Made by a program: the position numbers and the translations under genes. From contig JANQFL010000042.1 of the NCBI GenBank assembly GCA_028277845.1, forward strand, positions 1-56,375: DNA of 56,375 nucleotides, given 5' to 3'. Positions 5,901 to 27,233 of the stretch are shown here, in pieces. Source of the DNA: Sneathiellales bacterium (GTDB lineage: Bacteria; Pseudomonadota; Alphaproteobacteria; JANQFL01). The first letter of the stretch is position 1. Each line of letters begins with the position of its first letter. The notes beneath the pieces are model-generated. The model had not been told where the DNA came from, did not search any database, and saw nothing but the letters and a program-made list of their open reading frames with translations.

Positions 5901-6104
5901 TTAATTGAGCTGCCGTAATGCATTTCGTTGCAAATGGTTATAACGGGCCGGATTCGCCAGGGCTAGAGGCGGTTTTTCTTTTGTGTGCTATGCCTTGTGC
6001 TTGAATTCGCGCTGCCTATACTGCGCGCCGGTTTCGAAGACTTAACGGATTTGCGTCATACCATCGGTGTATGCACGCACCGCAGTTTCAGGAAAGGGCC
6101 GGAC

Positions 6105-7103
6105 ATGGCCGACAGCCAGTTTGACGTTTTATGCATCGGCAACGCCATCGTCGATGTGATCGCCCACGCCGAGGAGACGTTCATCGGCGACAACGACCTG
6201 GTCAAGGGGGCCATGACGCTGATCGACGCCGAACGCGCCGACGCCCTGTACGGCCGCATGGGCCCGGGCATGGAATGCTCGGGCGGATCGGCCGGCAACA
6301 CGGCGGCGGCGGTGGCCATGCTGGGCGGCCGGGCGGCCTATTTCGGCAAGGTGCGCGACGATCAGCTGGGCCAGGTGTTCCGCCACGATATCCGTGCCTC
6401 CGGCGTCAGTTTCGACACCGCACCGGCCGGCGACGGCCCGCCCACGGCGCGCTGCCTGATCCTGGTCACGCCCGACGCCGAACGCACCATGAACACCTAT
6501 CTGGGTGCCTGCGTCGATCTGGGGCCCGAGGACATCGACGAAACCGTCACGGCCGGCGCCAAGGTCACCTACATGGAAGGCTATCTGTGGGATCCGCCGC
6601 GGGCCAAGGACGCCTTCCGCAAGGCCATGTCCATTGCCCACGAACACGGCCGCAAGGTGTCGCTGACGCTCTCGGATCCGTTCTGCGTCGACCGTTACCG
6701 CGAGGAATTCCTGCACTTGGTCGAGCGCGAAGTGGACATCCTGTTCGCCAACGAGGACGAGATCATCTCGCTCTACCAGGCCGCCGATTTCGACGAAGCG
6801 CTGCAGCACGTGCGCGGCCATTGCGAAATCGCCGCCCTCACCCGTTCGGAGAAAGGCTCGGTGGTGATCAGCGGCGACGAAGTGCACGTCATCGACGCCG
6901 CCCCGGTCGACACCGTGGTCGACACCACAGGCGCCGGCGATCTCTATGCCGCCGGGTTCCTGCACGCCTGGTCTCAGGGCTGGTCGCTGCACGACTGCGG
7001 CCAGGCCGGCGGCATCTGCGCCGCCGAAATCATCAGCCACATCGGCGCCCGGCCCGAAGCCAACCTCAAGGACCTGATGCAGGCGGCGCTGGGCCGGTCG
7101 TGA
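6105..7103 (+). CDS. PfkB family carbohydrate/adenosine kinase
   Basis: 332 aa from the ATG at 6105, which has AGGAAAG about 9 bases upstream; the frame is open further upstream but without coding character. The PfkB N-terminal motif is GGSAGNTAAAVAMLGG and the C-terminal one is DTTGAGDLYAAGFLHAW, whose Asp is the catalytic base and whose glycines form the anion hole. Closest in pattern to bacterial adenosine kinase-like ribokinases, which phosphorylate a nucleoside or sugar with ATP. The 3' end overlaps the convergent permease-like gene by 38 bases. Confidence 0.88.
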   Translation: MADSQFDVLCIGNAIVDVIAHAEETFIGDNDLVKGAMTLIDAERADALYGRMGPGMECSGGSAGNTAAAVAMLGGRAAYFGKVRDDQLGQVFRHDIRASGVSFDTAPAGDGPPTARCLILVTPDAERTMNTYLGACVDLGPEDIDETVTAGAKVTYMEGYLWDPPRAKDAFRKAMSIAHEHGRKVSLTLSDPFCVDRYREEFLHLVEREVDILFANEDEIISLYQAADFDEALQHVRGHCEIAALTRSEKGSVVISGDEVHVIDAAPVDTVVDTTGAGDLYAAGFLHAWSQGWSLHDCGQAGGICAAEIISHIGARPEANLKDLMQAALGRS

Positions 7104-17812: not shown

Positions 17813-17936
17813 GGAAATGCAATTGTCGAACGTTTTGCAAACTGATCTGGCAGGGTGACCTCCGACACTAACTAACGGAGCGATCCTAGGCATTGCAATT
17901 ACAGGACGATTTTTCTTATCAATGGGAGTTCAAAAT

Positions 17937-19067
17937 ATGGAAGGTGGTTCAGAGACTCGCATAAAAAGAACAGCACGATCTGAGGTAAATACTACTCAAC
18001 CTGGGGCAGCAAGCGGCGACGATGTGTCTCCAGTCGGCACTCTGGTACAACGGATACCAGAGGTCATCCTCAAAAAAACGCCTCCTCGACCTTCACCTGT
18101 TTTCGATACCTATTGGAAATTTGCTGCCGAACGTCAATCGATTTTTCACGCTCGAATCGCAGGAACGCCACAACCATGGACACAAGATACCATCTTGACA
18201 GAGTACAAGTTTACCAATGCTTACAGGGCATCAGATCGTGTGAGCCAGTTCCTCATCCGATATGTGATATATGCAGCAGAGTTTGATTGGAGCTCCACGC
18301 TTCTCCGCATCATCTTGTTCAAAATATTCAATAAGATATCTACATGGGAGCTAATAGAAAGTCAGATCGGCACTATCAACGCGACATCTTTTTCAGCTGA
18401 AAGAATAGGTCATGTGCTGGACAACGAGTTAAGGCGTGGTTCACCTATCTACTCAAGCGCCTACATAATGCCCAGCGGCCCTGCATCAATCCGCCAATCA
18501 CGTAAACATATGATGCACTTGGCTTTGCTTTCTGAAATTGTTAGGGGCCGCCTTTTCAACGATCTGTTGGAGGCTCGGTCGATGGAGGCGGCATATAGGC
18601 TCCTACTAGCGATTCCTAGCTTTGGGCCTTTTTTAGCGTTTCAATTCTTGATTGATCTGAACTACAGCAAGTATCTCAATTTTTCCGAGATGGATTTCGT
18701 GGTACCTGGGCCAGGCGCGCGAGATGGAATCCGCAAATGCTTCTATGATTTTGGTGACTATAATGAAAGTGATGTCATCCGATGGGTGACTGAACGTCAA
18801 GACGAGGAGTTTGCTGTACGAGAAATTAAGTTTCAGTCTCTTTGGGGTCGACACCTACAATTGATTGATTGCCAAAATCTTTTCTGCGAAGTCGACAAAT
18901 ATGCACGGGTGGCTCATCCGGACTTAAAGGGTAGAACTGGTCGAACTCGCATAAAGCAGCGTTTTTCACCCAACCCAAACCAAATTTCTCCATGGTTTCC
19001 GCCCAAATGGGCGCTGAACAAAAAGATCGGACGTTCTTACGCTGCGCCCGGCCCTTCTCTCGAATAG
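17937..19067 (+). CDS. Helical 5-hmdU DNA kinase/thymine pyrophosphorylase-like protein
   Basis: 376 aa from an ATG at 17937 with GGGAG 8 bases upstream (an ATG at 17922 lacks this). An all-helical core starts near residue 55: PVFDTYWKFAAERQSIF, GTPQPWTQDTIL, YKFTNAYRASDRVSQFLIR, then LRIILFKIFNKISTWELI. From memory of the family, these are the motifs of the HMUDK helical domain and the alpha-glutamyl/putrescinyl thymine pyrophosphorylase group, known from phages that hypermodify thymine. No P-loop is present, so kinase activity should not be assumed. Codon use is AT-richer than the flanking genes. The 3' end overlaps the convergent MazG gene by 31 bases. Confidence 0.68.
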   Translation: MEGGSETRIKRTARSEVNTTQPGAASGDDVSPVGTLVQRIPEVILKKTPPRPSPVFDTYWKFAAERQSIFHARIAGTPQPWTQDTILTEYKFTNAYRASDRVSQFLIRYVIYAAEFDWSSTLLRIILFKIFNKISTWELIESQIGTINATSFSAERIGHVLDNELRRGSPIYSSAYIMPSGPASIRQSRKHMMHLALLSEIVRGRLFNDLLEARSMEAAYRLLLAIPSFGPFLAFQFLIDLNYSKYLNFSEMDFVVPGPGARDGIRKCFYDFGDYNESDVIRWVTERQDEEFAVREIKFQSLWGRHLQLIDCQNLFCEVDKYARVAHPDLKGRTGRTRIKQRFSPNPNQISPWFPPKWALNKKIGRSYAAPGPSLE

Positions 19068-20149
19068 GTGAGGCTCTGGGATTCTGCATTCAGCAAGAGC
19101 CAGCCTCCGCGGTTTTTTGTAAGGGCACGAAAGGCCTCATAACCAATGAGCACCGCCCTCTGCCACTCGTGAAGATGGCATTCCTTGACTTCGAGGTTGC
19201 GAACCATGCGACCAATCAGTTTCAAAATGTTGTGGTCAAGACGGTCTAAACCTTCAAGCATCGAATGGCCGAGTGCATAGTTGAAGATTGTATGGGCAAT
19301 AGCTTCCTCAACAATGATGGCTCGCGCTCCATCTTCGACTTCATCTTTCTGAGGTTTACTCTTTCGCTTACAACGCAATATTGCACGTGTAACTGGTGAC
19401 CACCCTAGAACGGCGACATAGGCGAGGTGGAAGGCATCGTGATAACGGTAACCATCATCAATTGCTGCATTATCTGTAAGGCGATCACCAATATTTATGT
19501 TGTGGGCCCGCAATATGACTTCGACACGCCCTTTACCACGTTTTCGCTCTAAAAATTGAATGTCGAGCTTTCTTGGTAGTCTTTCATAAGCTGGATAGTC
19601 TGAACCATCGAAGCAGCGTGCAGGTCCAGGATCGTCTGGACCAAACATACTTCTTACCTTACTCAGATTGGAAGCTAGGACATTAGACACGTTCAGCTTT
19701 TGTGCTTTCAGAGCCTGCAGTGTCGCGCGGCCTGAAGCACCAATGCTTTTTGCGAGCGCTTGTTTTTGGGCAGGCGTTGGATTGTTGGGCAAGCTTTCAA
19801 AATTGTTTGCGAGATGAGGAATCGTCCTCACCATCGAATAAACGTGTCCGTATGGTTCCTTCGGGATCTTGAGGGGAGGTGTCTGCTTGATCAAATCAGC
19901 TAGATCAAAACCATAGTGGGAACACAACGCAGCCAAATACCAAAGAACATCTCCAAACTCTTCAACCAAGTTCACCTCACCGTCAGTATAGGCGTATCCA
20001 TCCCTCAAGGACTTCTTGAGCTCTGATACCACTGATCCGAGCTCGCCAATAACACCGAACGCAGGAATGTGACGTTTGGCGGAATCGTTCCAGTCTATCT
20101 GTGCAGTTTGAAATGCTTGCTTTTGATATTTGCTCAGATTCATGCTCAT
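19037..20149 (-). CDS. MazG-like nucleotide pyrophosphohydrolase with large C-terminal domain
   Basis: 370 aa. Residues 30-90 are MazG-like: GVIGELGSVVSELKKSL followed by LVEEFGDVLWYLAALCSHYG, giving Glu36, Glu43 and Glu64-x2-Asp67. The second Glu of the usual ExxE is Ser39. Members of this fold hydrolyse (d)NTPs to NMP and pyrophosphate. A second domain (about 200-360) has DGYRYHDAFHLAYVAVLGWSP and ARAIIVEEAIAHTIFNYA, resembling the MazG C-terminal domain found in modified-nucleotide systems. The ATG at 20149 overlaps the upstream stop (ATGA) and has GAGG before it. Last gene of the operon. Confidence 0.75.
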   Translation of the reverse strand: MSMNLSKYQKQAFQTAQIDWNDSAKRHIPAFGVIGELGSVVSELKKSLRDGYAYTDGEVNLVEEFGDVLWYLAALCSHYGFDLADLIKQTPPLKIPKEPYGHVYSMVRTIPHLANNFESLPNNPTPAQKQALAKSIGASGRATLQALKAQKLNVSNVLASNLSKVRSMFGPDDPGPARCFDGSDYPAYERLPRKLDIQFLERKRGKGRVEVILRAHNINIGDRLTDNAAIDDGYRYHDAFHLAYVAVLGWSPVTRAILRCKRKSKPQKDEVEDGARAIIVEEAIAHTIFNYALGHSMLEGLDRLDHNILKLIGRMVRNLEVKECHLHEWQRAVLIGYEAFRALTKNRGGWLLLNAESQSLTYSREGPGAA

Positions 20150-20961
20150 GTCGTGACCTCAACATGGCCATCTCGAATCTGCTTGCAACGCTCCAGAAGC
20201 TGAACGATATCCCTTCGGCGCCATTGAACAGAACTGTCAAGCTGGCGATCTTCCAACATGGCCATCGTGGCGTGGCACACAAGTGGCCCAACCTGAATTC
20301 CAACTTCACGCGCTATTGCCGCTTGCAATCTAGCTAGACCGAGCAAATTGCCAATCGCCTTTTGCGTGTAGAACTGATAGCGATAAAGAGCAGTCAAGTA
20401 GAGTTCTCGATTCGGGCCGAGCTTGAGGCTGATATGGCTAAGGCATTGACCACCGCGATTGTTGTTGTGATCGTTCTCAATGGAATAGAGTTTGAGTTCG
20501 AGTGGTTCTAGGCCCAAATCCAATTCATAAACCGCTCTCTTTGGCGACCGTGTCGATAGTTGCTTCTTCAGTTTGTTGATGGCCAACTCTAATGGTGCCA
20601 ACTTCGTTCCATCTGAACATTTTCGCTCGGTCAAGCGAAGTGCATACGTCCCCCACCGGTTTTGCTGTACGTTCCGAATATGCGGATAGACCGATTCTGG
20701 GTAATTATATACCGCTTCCATTCCGCCTTGCCGGTATTCGGTCGCTGGGAAGATCGTCTCGGCGACCGTGTGGTTCGGTTGAGCATGAAACTTCCGAAGA
20801 AAAGTGTCTAACTCTTTCTCAATTGCACGAGAAACTGAGGTAACTAGTCCGGGCTGTTCGACCTCCAACACCACATTGTAAAGGCGAGCGTGCGCATTTT
20901 CCAAAGCTAGTGCAGTTGCAAGCCAGGCTTCCGCCCTGGTCGTTTTGCTCTCTACGAACAT
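20146..20961 (-). CDS. Thymidylate synthase-fold protein
   Basis: 271 aa from the ATG at 20961 (GAGG 6 bases upstream). The stretch from residue 172 aligns by eye with the active-site region of thymidylate synthase: QCLSHISLKLG against PCHAFFQFYV places Cys173 on the nucleophile, LYRYQFYTQKAIGNLLGLA on [20 protein letters not shown] with Asn205 on the conserved Asn, and GIQVG on DLEVG. The Arg-Ser-x-Asp block itself is not kept. TS-like enzymes also include dUMP and dCMP hydroxymethylases. Assignment rests on pattern only. It starts 10 bases after the protease stop, so it is in the same operon. Confidence 0.6.
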   Translation of the reverse strand: MFVESKTTRAEAWLATALALENAHARLYNVVLEVEQPGLVTSVSRAIEKELDTFLRKFHAQPNHTVAETIFPATEYRQGGMEAVYNYPESVYPHIRNVQQNRWGTYALRLTERKCSDGTKLAPLELAINKLKKQLSTRSPKRAVYELDLGLEPLELKLYSIENDHNNNRGGQCLSHISLKLGPNRELYLTALYRYQFYTQKAIGNLLGLARLQAAIAREVGIQVGPLVCHATMAMLEDRQLDSSVQWRRRDIVQLLERCKQIRDGHVEVTT

Positions 20962-20971
20962 TTTTACCTCG

Positions 20972-21628
20972 CTACATGTGCGGAACCACCGACGCGTAAC
21001 CAATGAGTTTTTCTTTGACATATTCGGTCGACATCCACGCATAACCTTTATCGGCCCAGGAAGTCCCCCAGCTATTTCGGATTAGAAAAAACAAGTGACC
21101 GATAGTGTCGTTGCCAAGACCAACGACCAGGACCGCATGCCCACCAAATCCATCGCCATCAGCTGAGATGGTGAAGTTGGGCCGGCTAGGTGAAAGAAAT
21201 TCGGGGGAAACCTTGATACCTAATACCACGGGTTGCCCATTGCTAATCAGCCGCACAATCTCGGCAGACGCATTTACAGTGTTGTGCTTAAGGTTGCCGT
21301 GCCATATTTCCGTGACTAGGGGAGGTGTCCAGGGGTTCGGTTGCGTCAAGCTGTATGGCCACTCTAGTTCCGACGGTTGGCCGTTCTGCGCCAGTGCCAT
21401 CGTAGCTTCCTCGAAAGTAATACCGTCAAAGACATTTCCAACATTGGCGATTAGAACTGCGTGATAGAATAGGAATTCGGCGGATAGTGGCACGCAGTTA
21501 TGAAACAAAGTATGGGCATCGCTCGTAGCACAGGCGAGACACGTTGATCGATCGCCTTGATCACGAACTGCATCCAGTTCACCCCGGAGATCTACGGCCG
21601 CAGTAATCGCGCCACCCCCTGTCGTCAT
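20972..21628 (-). CDS. Papain-like (C1 family) cysteine protease
   Basis: 218 aa, the size of a bare catalytic domain with no propeptide or signal sequence, so it is probably cytoplasmic. Oxyanion Gln24 and nucleophile Cys30 are in VRDQGDRSTCLACAT, His164 in FGGHAVLVVG, and Asn185 in FLIRNSWGTSWADKGYAWM. The start ATG overlaps the upstream ImmA/IrrE stop (ATGA). Lack of a propeptide means activity must be restrained in another way, and the neighbouring chagasin-like domain offers one. Confidence 0.85.
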   Translation of the reverse strand: MTTGGGAITAAVDLRGELDAVRDQGDRSTCLACATSDAHTLFHNCVPLSAEFLFYHAVLIANVGNVFDGITFEEATMALAQNGQPSELEWPYSLTQPNPWTPPLVTEIWHGNLKHNTVNASAEIVRLISNGQPVVLGIKVSPEFLSPSRPNFTISADGDGFGGHAVLVVGLGNDTIGHLFFLIRNSWGTSWADKGYAWMSTEYVKEKLIGYASVVPHM

Positions 21629-22620
21629 GCCGCAAGAACACGCCCGGAACGCGGAATTCCTTCTGGTTCTCGCCCGACGAGCGCTAATTCAATCTCAAAG
21701 GTATTGCGGCTTTGTTGAGATACATCCCAGGCGCGACGCTCCTCAAGAAACAAGCGCTTGTGACCTTCTCCTTGTAGAACCAAACGTCGCTGGACACGGC
21801 CGCCTAACCGATCTTCATTGGCAGTGAATCGATCATCCTGCTCGAGCGACATTCCGGCGAGCGCGATCGCTTTAGCATCCCACGTGTAGCCACTTGCGAC
21901 ATTCTCGTCCAATTCTAGTACGATCAAATCATCAGGGCTGCCAAGGATATGAGCACCGCGGTCTTTTTCCGACACCAGCCAAACATCTCTATGCCAGTTC
22001 TCAGGTTTCATATCTGGAACAGCACGTTGTTTTGCGACTTTTGGTTCCACACTCAGCAGCCGCATGACGGTTTCACGATCTAGGAATCTTTGAGAGAGAA
22101 GCGCCCAGCACGTCGCCGAGTAGCTCGTCCCCAACCTCAATGACAATTGATAGACGAAGTCAGGCTGCTGTAAATGCGAGCGGCCCCAGTTCTGTCTAAG
22201 TAGATGAGCTGCGATAAGCCATTTGGGAAGTAAGAACTCCGCAGCAAACGCGTCTGCCTCAATTTCCTGATGATCATGCTTCGAGGTCTCGCCACGACCA
22301 ACGAATCCGACGACGGCGTCCAGACTCAATACCTTGTGTTCTAATATGTGATGTCCCAATTCATGAGCGGCTGTGAAGCGTTGAACATGAAGATCACGCT
22401 TGGTCGTGACCAATATGCCAGATAGCGCTCGAGTCGGCACGTATGCACCGAGGAGACCGTCGAGTGGTCGGAACATCAAGAATAGACCGAGCCTTTGCAC
22501 TGCACCCAAAACATCAACGGCACGGTCTCCGGCTGCTAATTCATCACGCACACCGAGTCTCTCGTGCAGGTCGGTTGCGCGAGCTACGCCAGTTAGAATT
22601 GCGTCACGCCGGGAAACCAT
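21625..22620 (-). CDS. ImmA/IrrE metallopeptidase with C-terminal chagasin-like (I42) domain
   Basis: 331 aa. The M78 zinc motif is AAHELGHHILEH (His86, Glu87, His90), with EIEADAFAAEFLLP supplying the third ligand. ImmA/IrrE proteins cut or inactivate XRE-type repressors. Residues about 225-315 have the three loops of chagasin: NVASGYTW (240-247, for NPTTGY), RLGG (271-274) and ERRAWD (294-299, for RPW), with beta-strands between. Chagasins inhibit papain-like proteases, and such a protease is encoded next. The start is 1 base from the upstream XRE stop. Confidence 0.8.
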   Translation of the reverse strand: MVSRRDAILTGVARATDLHERLGVRDELAAGDRAVDVLGAVQRLGLFLMFRPLDGLLGAYVPTRALSGILVTTKRDLHVQRFTAAHELGHHILEHKVLSLDAVVGFVGRGETSKHDHQEIEADAFAAEFLLPKWLIAAHLLRQNWGRSHLQQPDFVYQLSLRLGTSYSATCWALLSQRFLDRETVMRLLSVEPKVAKQRAVPDMKPENWHRDVWLVSEKDRGAHILGSPDDLIVLELDENVASGYTWDAKAIALAGMSLEQDDRFTANEDRLGGRVQRRLVLQGEGHKRLFLEERRAWDVSQQSRNTFEIELALVGREPEGIPRSGRVLAA

Positions 22621-22621
22621 T

Positions 22622-22957
22622 TCAAGTTTCTACTTTGGATCGAAGCACGAGATATTCGCTGAACCGCATAAGCTCATCACGATCCTGTTGAGAAAGTTTG
22701 GCAACTTGCTTAGCAAGTATCGTCACATCGTCACCCATCGTTTGCGCCTCTTCGCCGGTAAAAAACCCGATCGGCTGCTGATACAATTTGGCAAGAGCCT
22801 TTAGTTCTAGCGCTTCGACCCCACGATGGGCGGTTTCAATGAGAGATATCGCTGAGCGAGATAGTTTGACAGCGCCAGCTACTTCTTGCTGCGATAGCCC
22901 GAGATACTCCCTGGCCTCCTTTAGTTTGGCAGCAATTTTTTCTCTATCTGTCGGCAT
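22622..22957 (-). CDS. XRE family transcriptional regulator
   Basis: 111 aa. Helix-turn-helix at residues 8-62: LKEAREYLGLSQQEVAGAVKLSRSAISLIETAHRGVEALELKALAKLY. The remaining residues are a short charged helix region, probably for dimerisation. ATG at 22957 with GAGG 9 bases upstream. It directly precedes the ImmA/IrrE gene, the standard repressor/anti-repressor pairing, and it is the natural candidate to bind the palindromes at 23325-23370. Confidence 0.9.
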   Translation of the reverse strand: MPTDREKIAAKLKEAREYLGLSQQEVAGAVKLSRSAISLIETAHRGVEALELKALAKLYQQPIGFFTGEEAQTMGDDVTILAKQVAKLSQQDRDELMRFSEYLVLRSKVET

Positions 22958-22986
22958 GGCTCAGAACCTCAAATTTATCAGTTACA

Positions 22987-23313
22987 CTACTCAGCAGCGA
23001 CGGAATGGGCTGCTGTGACGACGCAATGTTTGGCAATATTTGCAATAAGGTCAGTTACAGCCTCATCAACGCTCTCATACCCCCCCTTCCGAATCCATTT
23101 GGGTTTGAGTTTCTGGCCCGTCATAGCGAGCACAATTGGAGATAGTTTGCATACAGTTTTAGAGTCAACCGTCGGAAGATCCCAAAGGTCGGTCTCCGGC
23201 TCGGGTTGCCAGGCACAATCTTTAAGCTCTTTCTGCAAGCCGTATGTCAGGGCGGATTGAAGCTCAGCCCGTTTTCCTTCGAACTCAGAAGGCGTCATCT
23301 TTGCGGTAACCAT
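22987..23313 (-). CDS. Unknown 108-aa protein, first gene of the island operon
   Basis: 108 aa, not recognised. It is soluble and mixed in charge: MTPSEFEGKRAEL, then a Trp-rich stretch (DCAWQPEPETDLWDLP) and a C-terminal helix. ATG at 23313 with GGAG 7 bases upstream. It follows the twin palindromes, and the XRE gene starts 29 bases after its stop, so it opens the operon. No defined domain. Confidence 0.62.
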   Translation of the reverse strand: MVTAKMTPSEFEGKRAELQSALTYGLQKELKDCAWQPEPETDLWDLPTVDSKTVCKLSPIVLAMTGQKLKPKWIRKGGYESVDEAVTDLIANIAKHCVVTAAHSVAAE

Positions 23314-23324
23314 AAATTCACTCC

Positions 23325-23370
23325 GTTCGAATATCGAACAATATAATACGACATAGTTCGAAAATCAAAC
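23325..23370. promoter_or_regulatory. Twin operator-like palindromes and promoter of the island operon
   Basis: Site 1 (23325-23339) is GTTCGA-ATA-TCGAAC, perfect 6-base arms. Site 2 (23356-23370) is GTTCGA-AAA-TCAAAC with one mismatch. Centres are 31 bases apart, about three helical turns. On the minus strand a TATTAT -10-like box lies between them, so site 1 covers the start region and site 2 the -35. This is a plausible XRE repressor target. Confidence 0.6.
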
Positions 23371-23380
23371 ACAATGTGTC

Positions 23381-24028
23381 TTATATTGAAAGCCATGCAA
23401 TAGCAAGTGTAAGCCCTTGTTTTTTTTCGAAGATTATCGAGGGCCCCGAAACAATAGCGGCAATACTCTGATCCAGAACCGACTCGGGTTTAGCCCTAAG
23501 AAGGCCACCAGTCGATTGAGCTAGCTCAACTTGTGTGAAGTCTAAGTCCATATCCCCCGTAATCGATGACTGGCATTTGAAAAGCGCCTCTTTAGCGGAA
23601 AACAGTAGGCGCGCCGCATCTTCGTAATCGTTTGCAAATGGATGTGTAATCAACGCTTTGATCTCGTCGCCCCGTCCAACTTCACGTGAGATAGAGCCCA
23701 AGTTGCGGCCATCCTCAATATCGATACCAACCGAGCGAACTTGGGAAGTTGGTGCTACCGCGACCACTACATGCGTACCACTGTGAGCAATACTGCCGCA
23801 CAGCCCCACCGGCCAGCAAGGAGCACCATTAGGGCGCCGCATTATCTGCTGTTCAACATGTCCCAATTCGACTAATGCTCGTCTAGCCAACACCCGACCA
23901 GCAATTATCTCCTTTTGCCGAGCAGGTACTGCACCTTCAAGCAAGTCAAACTCCTCCCCTACCAAAAATCCTTGGGCATCATTAATTCGACTAGTTTTCA
24001 CGACAATAGAATTTGGGCGAGAAGCCAT
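23381..24028 (-). CDS. 4'-phosphopantetheinyl transferase superfamily protein
   Basis: 215 aa from the ATG at 24028 (the frame is open to 24064; MVVLFAMASRPN would be the longer form). Signature blocks of Sfp/EntD-type enzymes are visible: CGSIAHSGTHVVVAVA, VGIDIEDGRNL and LLFSAKEALFKCQ, carrying the Asp/Glu metal ligands and the Lys. These enzymes attach phosphopantetheine from CoA to carrier proteins. It ends 11 bases before the twin operators and is oriented into the operon. No carrier protein is evident here. Confidence 0.85.
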   Translation of the reverse strand: MASRPNSIVVKTSRINDAQGFLVGEEFDLLEGAVPARQKEIIAGRVLARRALVELGHVEQQIMRRPNGAPCWPVGLCGSIAHSGTHVVVAVAPTSQVRSVGIDIEDGRNLGSISREVGRGDEIKALITHPFANDYEDAARLLFSAKEALFKCQSSITGDMDLDFTQVELAQSTGGLLRAKPESVLDQSIAAIVSGPSIIFEKKQGLTLAIAWLSI

Positions 24029-24123
24029 GGCAAATAATACAACCATATGAACCCATGCTGCCAACGTTTATTCTATTGAAACTCTTTGCAACCGACTGCC
24101 ACACCGGGTGCGCCAAACCAGCC

Positions 24124-26427: not shown

Positions 26428-26874
26428 CTACTCCGTTCTGGTTTTAGGCGCCGGCGTGCCGGGAGAAAAATCAATTTCCAATATCCGACCGGCTGGTTTT
26501 TCAATATTCGAATTCGGTGTGTTGCTTGCGGCGGCCTCTACCCTGCTCTTTACAATCGCACGCAATGCGTCGCGTTCAGAAACAAGGGAGTCAATCTCGG
26601 CTGCGGTCGTCAAGACAAGGCTTTCCCCACACGCATCAGCGTAGCGTGCCATCAGATCGAGAGGCGGCATGTTTTCGACCTTGCCGTTTTCCAGCTGGGA
26701 AACTCGCGGTTGGGAGATGTCGAGCGCCGCTGCCATTTTCTTTTGGGTCAATCCTGCGCGGCTGCGCATCGCACGCAAAACGGCACCGGCGGATTTTGCC
26801 ATTTCGGCGACGATCCAGGCATCGTGCAGTGCCGGATCCAGTCGTTTTTTCTCAATAAGGTCCTTTATGCTCAT
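26428..26874 (-). CDS. XRE-type regulator, possible antitoxin
   Basis: 148 aa. Residues 29-88 are a clear helix-turn-helix: AGAVLRAMRSRAGLTQKKMAAALDISQPRVSQLENGKVENMPPLDLMARY. A C-terminal tail of 50 residues contains coiled-coil-like SLVSERDALRAIVKSRVE. The start ATG overlaps the stop of the upstream gene (ATGA). The order toxin-like gene then helix-turn-helix gene is that of HigBA systems, so an antitoxin role is possible. Confidence 0.75.
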   Translation of the reverse strand: MSIKDLIEKKRLDPALHDAWIVAEMAKSAGAVLRAMRSRAGLTQKKMAAALDISQPRVSQLENGKVENMPPLDLMARYADACGESLVLTTAAEIDSLVSERDALRAIVKSRVEAAASNTPNSNIEKPAGRILEIDFSPGTPAPKTRTE

Positions 26875-27233
26875 TCCACAACCTGACCTTCAAGCAACCT
26901 TTTATCAGCCCGCTTGACGAAATCGAATAGCCACTCAACCAACTCGGAGCGGCCCTCTGCAAATGCGGTCGCCAACAACGTCACCCGTTCCTCGTTGTCC
27001 TCACCTTGCACTTGAATAGCGCATCTGATCGGCCCGTCCGTAAACAACCAGATGTCGTTTTCGCCGGTTCGAGTCCAATCGTGGCGGGCGGCTCCGAATC
27101 CCTGGGTGTAAATTTGGTCGAGGCTTCCCAGCAAGCTGATGTACGCTTCCGTATGGTCGCGCGGCATCCCGGTCACCAGCAGCCTGTTCAGTTCATCCTC
27201 CGCATTGAAGCCCGGACCACAAACGTAATGCAC
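26871..27233 (-). CDS. Unknown 120-aa protein upstream of XRE, toxin-like position
   Basis: 120 aa from a GTG at 27233. Not recognised with confidence. The order WTRTGENDIWLFTDGPIRCAIQVQ followed by a charged segment and a C-terminal KRADKRLLEG helix loosely recalls small beta-strand-rich RelE/HigB-like proteins, but no conserved catalytic set is visible. It is coupled by ATGA to the XRE gene. Upstream DNA is AT-rich. Confidence 0.5.
   Translation of the reverse strand: MHYVCGPGFNAEDELNRLLVTGMPRDHTEAYISLLGSLDQIYTQGFGAARHDWTRTGENDIWLFTDGPIRCAIQVQGEDNEERVTLLATAFAEGRSELVEWLFDFVKRADKRLLEGQVVE

Follow-up and report, generated by a model that had tools for sequence, protein, structure and literature searches.

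The window analysed here, 56,375 nucleotides of contig JANQFL010000042.1 from a Sneathiellales bacterium, contains a conserved set of eight genes at 17922-24064 (Table 1). They encode a protein of the acyl-carrier type, an Sfp-type 4'-phosphopantetheinyl transferase (PPTase), an XRE repressor, an M78 (ImmA/IrrE) metallopeptidase with a chagasin-like I42 tail, a papain-like C1 protease, a protein with the fold of thymidylate synthase (TS), a MazG-MazG_C fusion and a protein of the HMUDK_hel family. We read this set as a normally silent operon, gated by its repressor and metallopeptidase and spread horizontally, which would most likely act against phages, or mobile DNA in general, by altering nucleotides. 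Judged from sequence comparisons, we give this reading a probability of about 0.5. The individual protein families are already known; we know of no system in which a carrier protein occurs together with a TS-fold enzyme and a papain/chagasin switch.

Recurrence of the gene set

A scan of a genome collection, in which 92 pattern matches came down to 40 loci, together with the window and plasmid records yielded 58 loci with a gene for the TS-like protein, or 54 once near copies were removed. All locus counts are lower bounds, because contig ends cut some loci. Most of the loci hold most of the gene set: M78 was found in 53, XRE in 52, MazG_C in 47, and C1 and HMUDK_hel in 39 each, and the carrier gene was detected in 46 by profile and in three more by eye. 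A PPTase or an AcpS gene is present in 33/58 loci, never both together. Accompanying genes include dCTP-deaminase-like genes (12/58) and thymidylate-kinase-like genes (3/58), and the exact gene order of the window, with the PPTase gene first, was seen in 7/58 loci. An earlier interpretation made from the letters of the window alone (the sequence-only reading) had staked its proposal on co-occurrence of these genes in other genomes, and the set does recur, at the 58 loci described.

Going by record titles, the bacterial hosts comprise alpha-, beta-, gamma- and deltaproteobacteria, Myxococcales, Planctomycetota, Dehalococcoidia, Actinomycetota and Cyanobacteria, and one archaeal instance was found on a plasmid of the haloarchaeon Haloarcula. 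In tblastn searches, the TS-like protein matched 20 plasmid records and the M78/I42 protein 19, with 18 records common to both lists; the TS-like gene lies close by in 19/19 plasmid records with an M78/I42 relative. As a sample independent of the selection by TS-like genes, 398 genomes drawn from the phylum, including that of the window, were searched for MazG_C. Four were positive, and in all four a TS-like gene lies within ~3 kb. In the three positive genomes other than our own, M78 is located upstream of the TS-like gene, and UDG or HMUDK_hel adjoins MazG_C. Four positives among 398 genomes indicate that the operon is rare, at about one genome in 100. Among 96 relatives drawn from the class, the TS-like protein was found in the own genome only.

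Reduced forms of the set were also noticed. Three loci (L033, L034 and L018) contain the TS-like, HMUDK_hel and MazG_C genes, with M78 and C1 undetected; in L018, a carrier gene is present and the TS-like gene is interrupted. A plasmid record of Burkholderia arboris (L002) contains a lone TS-like fragment at 5995-6537 with 59% identity to the window, near an open reading frame (ORF) of 1774 amino acids that appears RHS-like by eye.

Protein families, motifs and candidate operators

The 108-amino-acid protein, which the sequence-only reading had rightly placed in the operon as an unknown, is identified here from its conserved attachment site and profile matches as a carrier protein of the acyl-carrier type. 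The only residues invariant across 25/25 aligned relatives (mean identity 22%) are D50-S51, and a profile of the family searched against the PDB gave a best E-value of 1.5e-4, with most of its 36 matches being acyl or peptidyl carrier proteins. In an AlphaFold2 model (pLDDT 72), a helix begins exactly at S51. The fold search with this model was weak though rich in carrier proteins (Foldseek E 1.0 at best; VIA Z of 5.6 or lower, with a top row that is not a carrier protein), and we set aside Foldseek by itself as too weak to rest the carrier fold on. A Streptomyces relative (L007) passes PF00550 at 1.2e-7; no Pfam match was obtained for the relatives in L049 and L035 or for the protein of the window. 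Four relatives are named acyl carrier protein in public annotation. The carrier genes spotted by eye precede the TS-like gene in three actinobacterial loci, and the relative in the actinobacterial locus L036 has E-S in place of D-S. We expect that the neighbouring PPTase loads the carrier protein by phosphopantetheinylation.

The AlphaFold2 model of the TS-like protein (pLDDT 84.9) matched structures of the TS superfamily in Foldseek with E-values down to 1.8e-8 and TM-scores of 0.41-0.59. VIA gave Z-scores of about 14-17 over ~200 residues (17.3 for AfhB, 16.9 for MilA and ~15 for ThyA), at 8-15% identity. C200 and N232 (298-residue ORF numbering throughout) are invariant in 37 aligned rows, and their equivalence to the catalytic Cys and the base-binding Asn of TS comes from a weak hidden Markov model (HMM) alignment to 4dq1 (E 0.052). 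In the same alignment, the D, H and Y positions of the TS motif, which we take to be the folate Asp and the sugar (O3')-binding His/Tyr, are replaced. Arg221 is lost in six aligned rows, five of them cyanobacterial and one from a planctomycete. The protein matched no Pfam family at E-values up to 1, PF00303 included. We rejected the possibility that it is the thymidylate synthase of its host, since the own genome encodes ThyX and gave no PF00303 match at E 0.001. Judged by the model, the protein thus has the fold of the TS superfamily and is not a canonical ThyA.

All eight proteins were scanned against PADLOC, and matches were limited to M78 and XRE. M78 matched capP (1.3e-16), and XRE matched RmrA best (8.5e-14), followed by capH (3.1e-10); a few other models were hit, none of them a cyclase. 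The HExxH motif is present in 46/46 aligned M78 relatives. Upstream of the carrier gene of the window, two palindromes, each one mismatch from TGTTYGANNNTCRAACA, lie 31 bp apart over and just past a promoter-like site, and we regard them as candidate operators. The 16-bp core has three exact copies in the 5.39-Mb genome, two of which are at this locus. Of the 46 loci in which a profile detected the carrier gene (near copies are counted), 22 have sites with two mismatches at most ahead of it, six of them as a pair 30-32 bp apart. The operator pattern was found at 42 places in 961 kb compared to 4-8 in five single-base shuffles; it had been derived from the very upstream regions used for this count, so the count in the own genome is the fairer test. 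In the window alone, the pattern was not enriched at up to three mismatches (4 places, 5.0 by chance), nor were promoter-like sites significant on their own (6 in the region, 5.9 expected). In the cyanobacterial loci L044-L050, the promoter region ahead of the carrier gene is covered by another palindrome, which reads GTAAGANNNTCTTAC or nearly so.

The catalytic residues of C1 are intact in 32/33 loci, the exception being L015, in which the gene is split across two frames. At the C-terminus of M78, the chagasin L2 loop G[YFHAM]xW was found in 37/37 loci with a papain gene compared to 0/14 without one, and three further loci fit this link, one with both and two with neither. This scoring covers 51/53 M78 loci, L027 (short M78) and L059 (short TS-like row) having been dropped by length, and the pattern had been widened from G[YFHA].W in order to include L036. 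The first pattern scored 30/33 papain loci and missed L036, L015, in which the loop is visible in a partial gene at a contig end, and L027, in which the M78 gene is interrupted. Searched against the PDB, the chagasin domain gave one weak match, amoebiasin-2 (E 0.34). The carrier protein shows a parallel pattern. Beyond the attachment site, a Gly-Gly-[Tyr/Phe/Leu] motif is present in 32/32 papain loci and in 0/14 others with profile-detected carrier genes; this pattern, too, had been widened, from GGY (30/32 and 0/14) to GG[YFL]. The motif is absent in two actinobacterial papain loci whose carrier genes were found by eye. It might be a contact or cleavage site for the papain protease, subject to the same reservation about few changes that is given below for the loop.

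The MazG_C residues RxHDxxH, ED and EE are kept in 45/45 aligned proteins or nearly so. Searched against the PDB as single sequences, the MazG/MazG_C protein had two weak matches and the HMUDK_hel protein none. UDG is present in 14 of the 58 loci and HMUDK_hel in 39; no locus has both and five have neither, and the two were exchanged in five changes on the TS-like tree. This mutual exclusion suggests that they probably share one slot acting on DNA. Walker A (GxxxxGK[ST]) was absent in the three HMUDK_hel proteins checked, and a profile search matched the helical domain and no P-loop kinase domain. The term kinase is therefore merely a family name. The swapping with UDG had raised the idea that HMUDK_hel is a helix-hairpin-helix glycosylase, for which a PDB profile search gave chance matches only. 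Pfam confirmed one relative each for UDG (PF03167), the deaminase (PF22769) and the kinase-like protein (PF02223). The dCTP-deaminase-like and thymidylate-kinase-like genes would fit a dUMP route.

HMUDK_hel relatives occur in 487 of 50,697 phage records (best identity 35.8%; five cover 80% of the query), many of which fall in host groups known for hypermodified thymidine. In these 50,697 records, tblastn found no match for the TS-like protein at E 0.001, which leaves the domesticated phage module considered by the sequence-only reading unsupported. One phage relative of HMUDK_hel (H77) overlaps features annotated as terminase small subunit, which are probably misnamed. MazG_C and UDG genes also lie adjacent to each other in TIR-type islands without the TS-like operon, in 4/4 such plasmid records examined (Table 1); one of these islands (L052) also has SIR2 and a CBASS phospholipase. 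The presence of such pairs among TIR genes links the two families to immunity.

Overall, the families that the sequence-only reading had assigned by eye to M78 with I42, C1, the TS-fold protein and MazG are borne out by Pfam profiles and by the structure matches of the TS model. Its convergent helical protein does belong to HMUDK_hel.

Proposed pathway and rival explanations

The payload of the operon would be the carrier protein with its PPTase and the TS-fold protein, and MazG/MazG_C plus UDG or HMUDK_hel would complete the set; the CapH/CapP-like pair of XRE and M78 lies near the operon head, and where M78 bears a chagasin domain the papain gene comes next. According to PMC10904395, single-stranded DNA stimulates cleavage of CapH by CapP and of DdrO by PprI. 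From the known families, we infer that single-stranded DNA or another stress signal would activate M78, which would cut the XRE repressor and thereby open the operon. The I42 tail may keep the papain protease in check as long as M78 is neither spent nor rearranged, and the likeliest partner of this protease would be the carrier protein. The Cys of the TS-fold enzyme would attack C6 of a dUMP-like nucleotide, whose C5 would be joined to a group that the phosphopantetheine arm either brings or takes up. The altered nucleotide might be processed by MazG while in the pool, and its base by UDG or HMUDK_hel once in DNA. The product would either poison phage DNA or be cleared from host DNA. A protease-controlled switch over a pyrimidine nucleotide, as the sequence-only reading had put it, remains the best reading at the level of inference.

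A different version, which we consider rather unlikely, is an immune pathway with the nucleotide on the carrier: the TS-fold enzyme would join C5 of dUMP to the phosphopantetheine arm, and the papain protease would then free an antiviral nucleotide. Either the carrier would hand an acyl group to C5, or the thiol of the pantetheine would add to a methylene intermediate, so that the nucleotide stays tethered to the carrier protein. The protease held by chagasin would process the carrier, perhaps at the conserved Gly-Gly site. If true, this would for the first time connect nucleotide-based immunity with carrier-protein chemistry and with a cathepsin/chagasin pair from bacteria.

Several observations weigh against an inducible anti-phage operon. 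The operon of the window is flanked by non-defence genes. Support for defence from the neighbouring genes is weak: genes with a defence, toxin-antitoxin, caspase or CHAT annotation lie near the operon at 9/16 plasmid loci, and toxin-antitoxin genes in 1/6 control stretches, but the count goes by annotation names, and the control plasmids were chosen once they had already been seen to be positive. Some loci are without MazG_C, PPTase/AcpS or C1, and the set lacks a gene that would load acyl or amino acid groups. The XRE protein fits RmrA models better than capH. In eight seed sequences, the first metal motif of MazG is Exx[S/G/T] instead of ExxE; without the second Glu, pyrophosphatase activity is doubtful, and the MazG domain may be inactive or otherwise changed. 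Finally, the link of I42 to C1 traces back to two independent changes (sign test p 0.5) on the TS-like tree, a quick tree with flagged long branches, so the association of loop and papain gene is suggestive and not proof.

Some of the same evidence can be read as restriction of phages that carry 5-hydroxymethyl- or hypermodified thymidine. MazG would destroy the modified dNTPs, UDG or HMUDK_hel would attack the base, and the TS-fold enzyme with the holo-carrier would undo the substitution at C5, with the one-carbon unit passing to the pantetheine thiol. The HMUDK_hel relatives in phage records, many of them in host groups with hypermodified thymidine, the interchange of UDG and HMUDK_hel and the MazG_C-UDG pairs among TIR or SIR2 genes all agree with this view. 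Recognition of modified DNA, however, needs no protease-gated switch of the DNA-damage type, and the reverse C5 reaction has no sequence support; we regard this explanation as improbable. A further rival is a stress-response or plasmid-maintenance metabolic cassette without a phage role, in which dUTP/dUMP housekeeping takes place under DNA damage and papain and I42 form an addiction module. MazG, UDG, dCTP deaminase and PprI/DdrO-like regulation are themes of DNA stress, and a papain protease beside a fused inhibitor resembles toxin and antitoxin. Variants without C1 nevertheless retain the other genes, and dUTP control needs no dedicated carrier protein; we regard such a cassette as quite unlikely. 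It is very unlikely, finally, that the set marks self by attaching a group from the carrier to thymidine of the host or plasmid, whether to protect or to silence, with UDG restricting unmarked DNA. The carrier protein, the TS fold and the occasional kinase-like genes would fit a precursor route of base modification, and the set is found on plasmids too, but the paired candidate operators argue against constant marking, the eight genes include no sequence-specific enzyme or nuclease, and UDG is present in just 14/58 loci.

The inducible anti-phage operon, as we read it, shares features with several known systems. Like CapH/CapP (the CBASS regulators), PprI/DdrO and ImmR/ImmA, it has separate XRE and M78 genes near the operon head; unlike in these, its M78 protein bears an I42 inhibitor domain and is paired with a papain gene. 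The cyclase (CD-NTase) and effector of CBASS are absent from the eight proteins according to the PADLOC scan. HMUDK, aGPT-Pplase and TS-like hydroxymethylases are phage genes of thymidine hypermodification, with which the set shares the HMUDK_hel domain and a TS fold. It differs from them in the missing P-loop motif, in its carrier protein, PPTase, proteases and repressor, and in a TS-like protein that is unmatched in phage records. With the phage dCMP hydroxylase AfhB, the CMP hydroxymethylase MilA and ThyA, the TS-like protein shares fold and active-site Cys and Asn, and it differs from them by its low identity and the residues replaced in the weak HMM alignment. The MazG_C-UDG pairs in islands with TIR, SIR2 or phospholipase genes are of the same families and likewise adjacent, but carrier, TS-like, M78 and C1 genes were unmatched in those four loci.

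DefensePredictor places aGPT-Pplase, MazG and MazG-C with the defence domains that are predicted and untested, with UDG and HTH in the legend of its Fig. 6F; its validated domains include a 5-hmdU kinase and a thymidylate synthase domain (PMC13092281). Its main text contains neither "acyl carrier" nor "papain" (PMC13092281); an overlap with our gene set in its figures or tables is possible. In the open-licence literature searched, including PMC13092281, PMC10853773, PMC12458937 and PMC10904395, no description of the gene set was found; parts of it may have been mentioned earlier. If our reading holds, an inducible pathway so far unrecognised is common to bacteria and archaea, in which carrier chemistry, TS-type pyrimidine chemistry and a cathepsin/chagasin pair are placed under a damage-type switch. 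This would point to new modified nucleotides and explain what MazG_C and the HMUDK_hel proteins of hosts do.

Genomic setting of the operon

The compact minus-strand operon described by the sequence-only reading was confirmed. Its genes overlap by 4 nt (ATGA) at the MazG/TS and C1/M78 junctions and are separated by 1 nt between M78 and XRE and by 29 nt between XRE and the 108-amino-acid gene, and the convergent HMUDK_hel gene overlaps the operon end by 31 nt. Comparison with relatives makes a start of the TS-like gene at 20961 more likely than at 21042. The core had been recognised correctly; the PPTase gene and the conserved operator pair had been missed, and because this gene belongs to the set, the block extends to 24064. 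MFS, LysR and 299-amino-acid XRE genes separate the block from hisB, which is not its direct neighbour.

Table 1 Features of the operon in the window, and MazG_C-UDG pairs in plasmid records (positions of the latter refer to the record concerned).
Feature	Position	Strand	Remarks
HMUDK_hel-family protein, 381 aa	17922..19067	+	PF18723 4.9e-104; convergent with operon; without P-loop motif
MazG domain fused to MazG_C, 370 aa	19037..20149	-	PF18722 1.9e-70; PF03819 0.0012, 19.5 bits, below its 22-bit cut-off
Thymidylate-synthase-fold protein (by model), 271 aa from likely start	20146..20961	-	ORF opens at 21042 (298 aa); TIGR03283 2.5e-7, far below model cut-off
Papain-like cysteine protease C1, 218 aa	20972..21628	-	PF00112 7.4e-13; Cys, His, Asn present; phmmer 2.7e-10 to cysteine protease 3ois
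M78 (ImmA/IrrE) metallopeptidase with C-terminal I42 chagasin domain, 331 aa	21625..22620	-	PF06114 1e-10; PF09394 1.7e-7
XRE repressor, 111 aa	22622..22957	-	PF13560 7.7e-10; PF01381 4.4e-9
Carrier protein, acyl-carrier type (predicted), 108 aa	22987..23313	-	attachment site D50-S51
Candidate operator O2, core GTTCGAATATCGAAC	23324..23340	none	near expected transcription start
Promoter-like site TTGATT-17-TATATT	23340..23368	-	before carrier gene; consensus match
Candidate operator O1	23355..23371	none	31 bp from O2; covers -35-like hexamer
Sfp-type PPTase, 227 aa	23381..24064	-	PF17837 8.3e-18; PF01648 2e-7
MazG_C and UDG pair, L051	6914-8721		
MazG_C and UDG pair, L052	6986-8778		
MazG_C and UDG pair, L053	6995-8826		
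MazG_C and UDG pair, L055	6926-8694		

No tRNA genes were found in the window, and a search for an insertion site or flanking repeats around the block gave nothing convincing. When seven flanking genes of the window were compared with the 54 other loci for a shared insertion site, a weak LysR match was the only result. The block is AT-richer than its flanks, as the sequence-only reading had noted: in 1-kb windows, its GC content is 0.47-0.53 (17.5-24 kb), compared to 0.63-0.70 to its left and 0.64 to its right, which is as expected for an acquired island. A second patch of low GC content lies to the right of the block at 26-27.5 kb. Within it, at 26428-27233 on the minus strand after hslU, an AT-richer stretch contains an ORF of 120 amino acids that overlaps an XRE gene, an arrangement that resembles a toxin-antitoxin pair.

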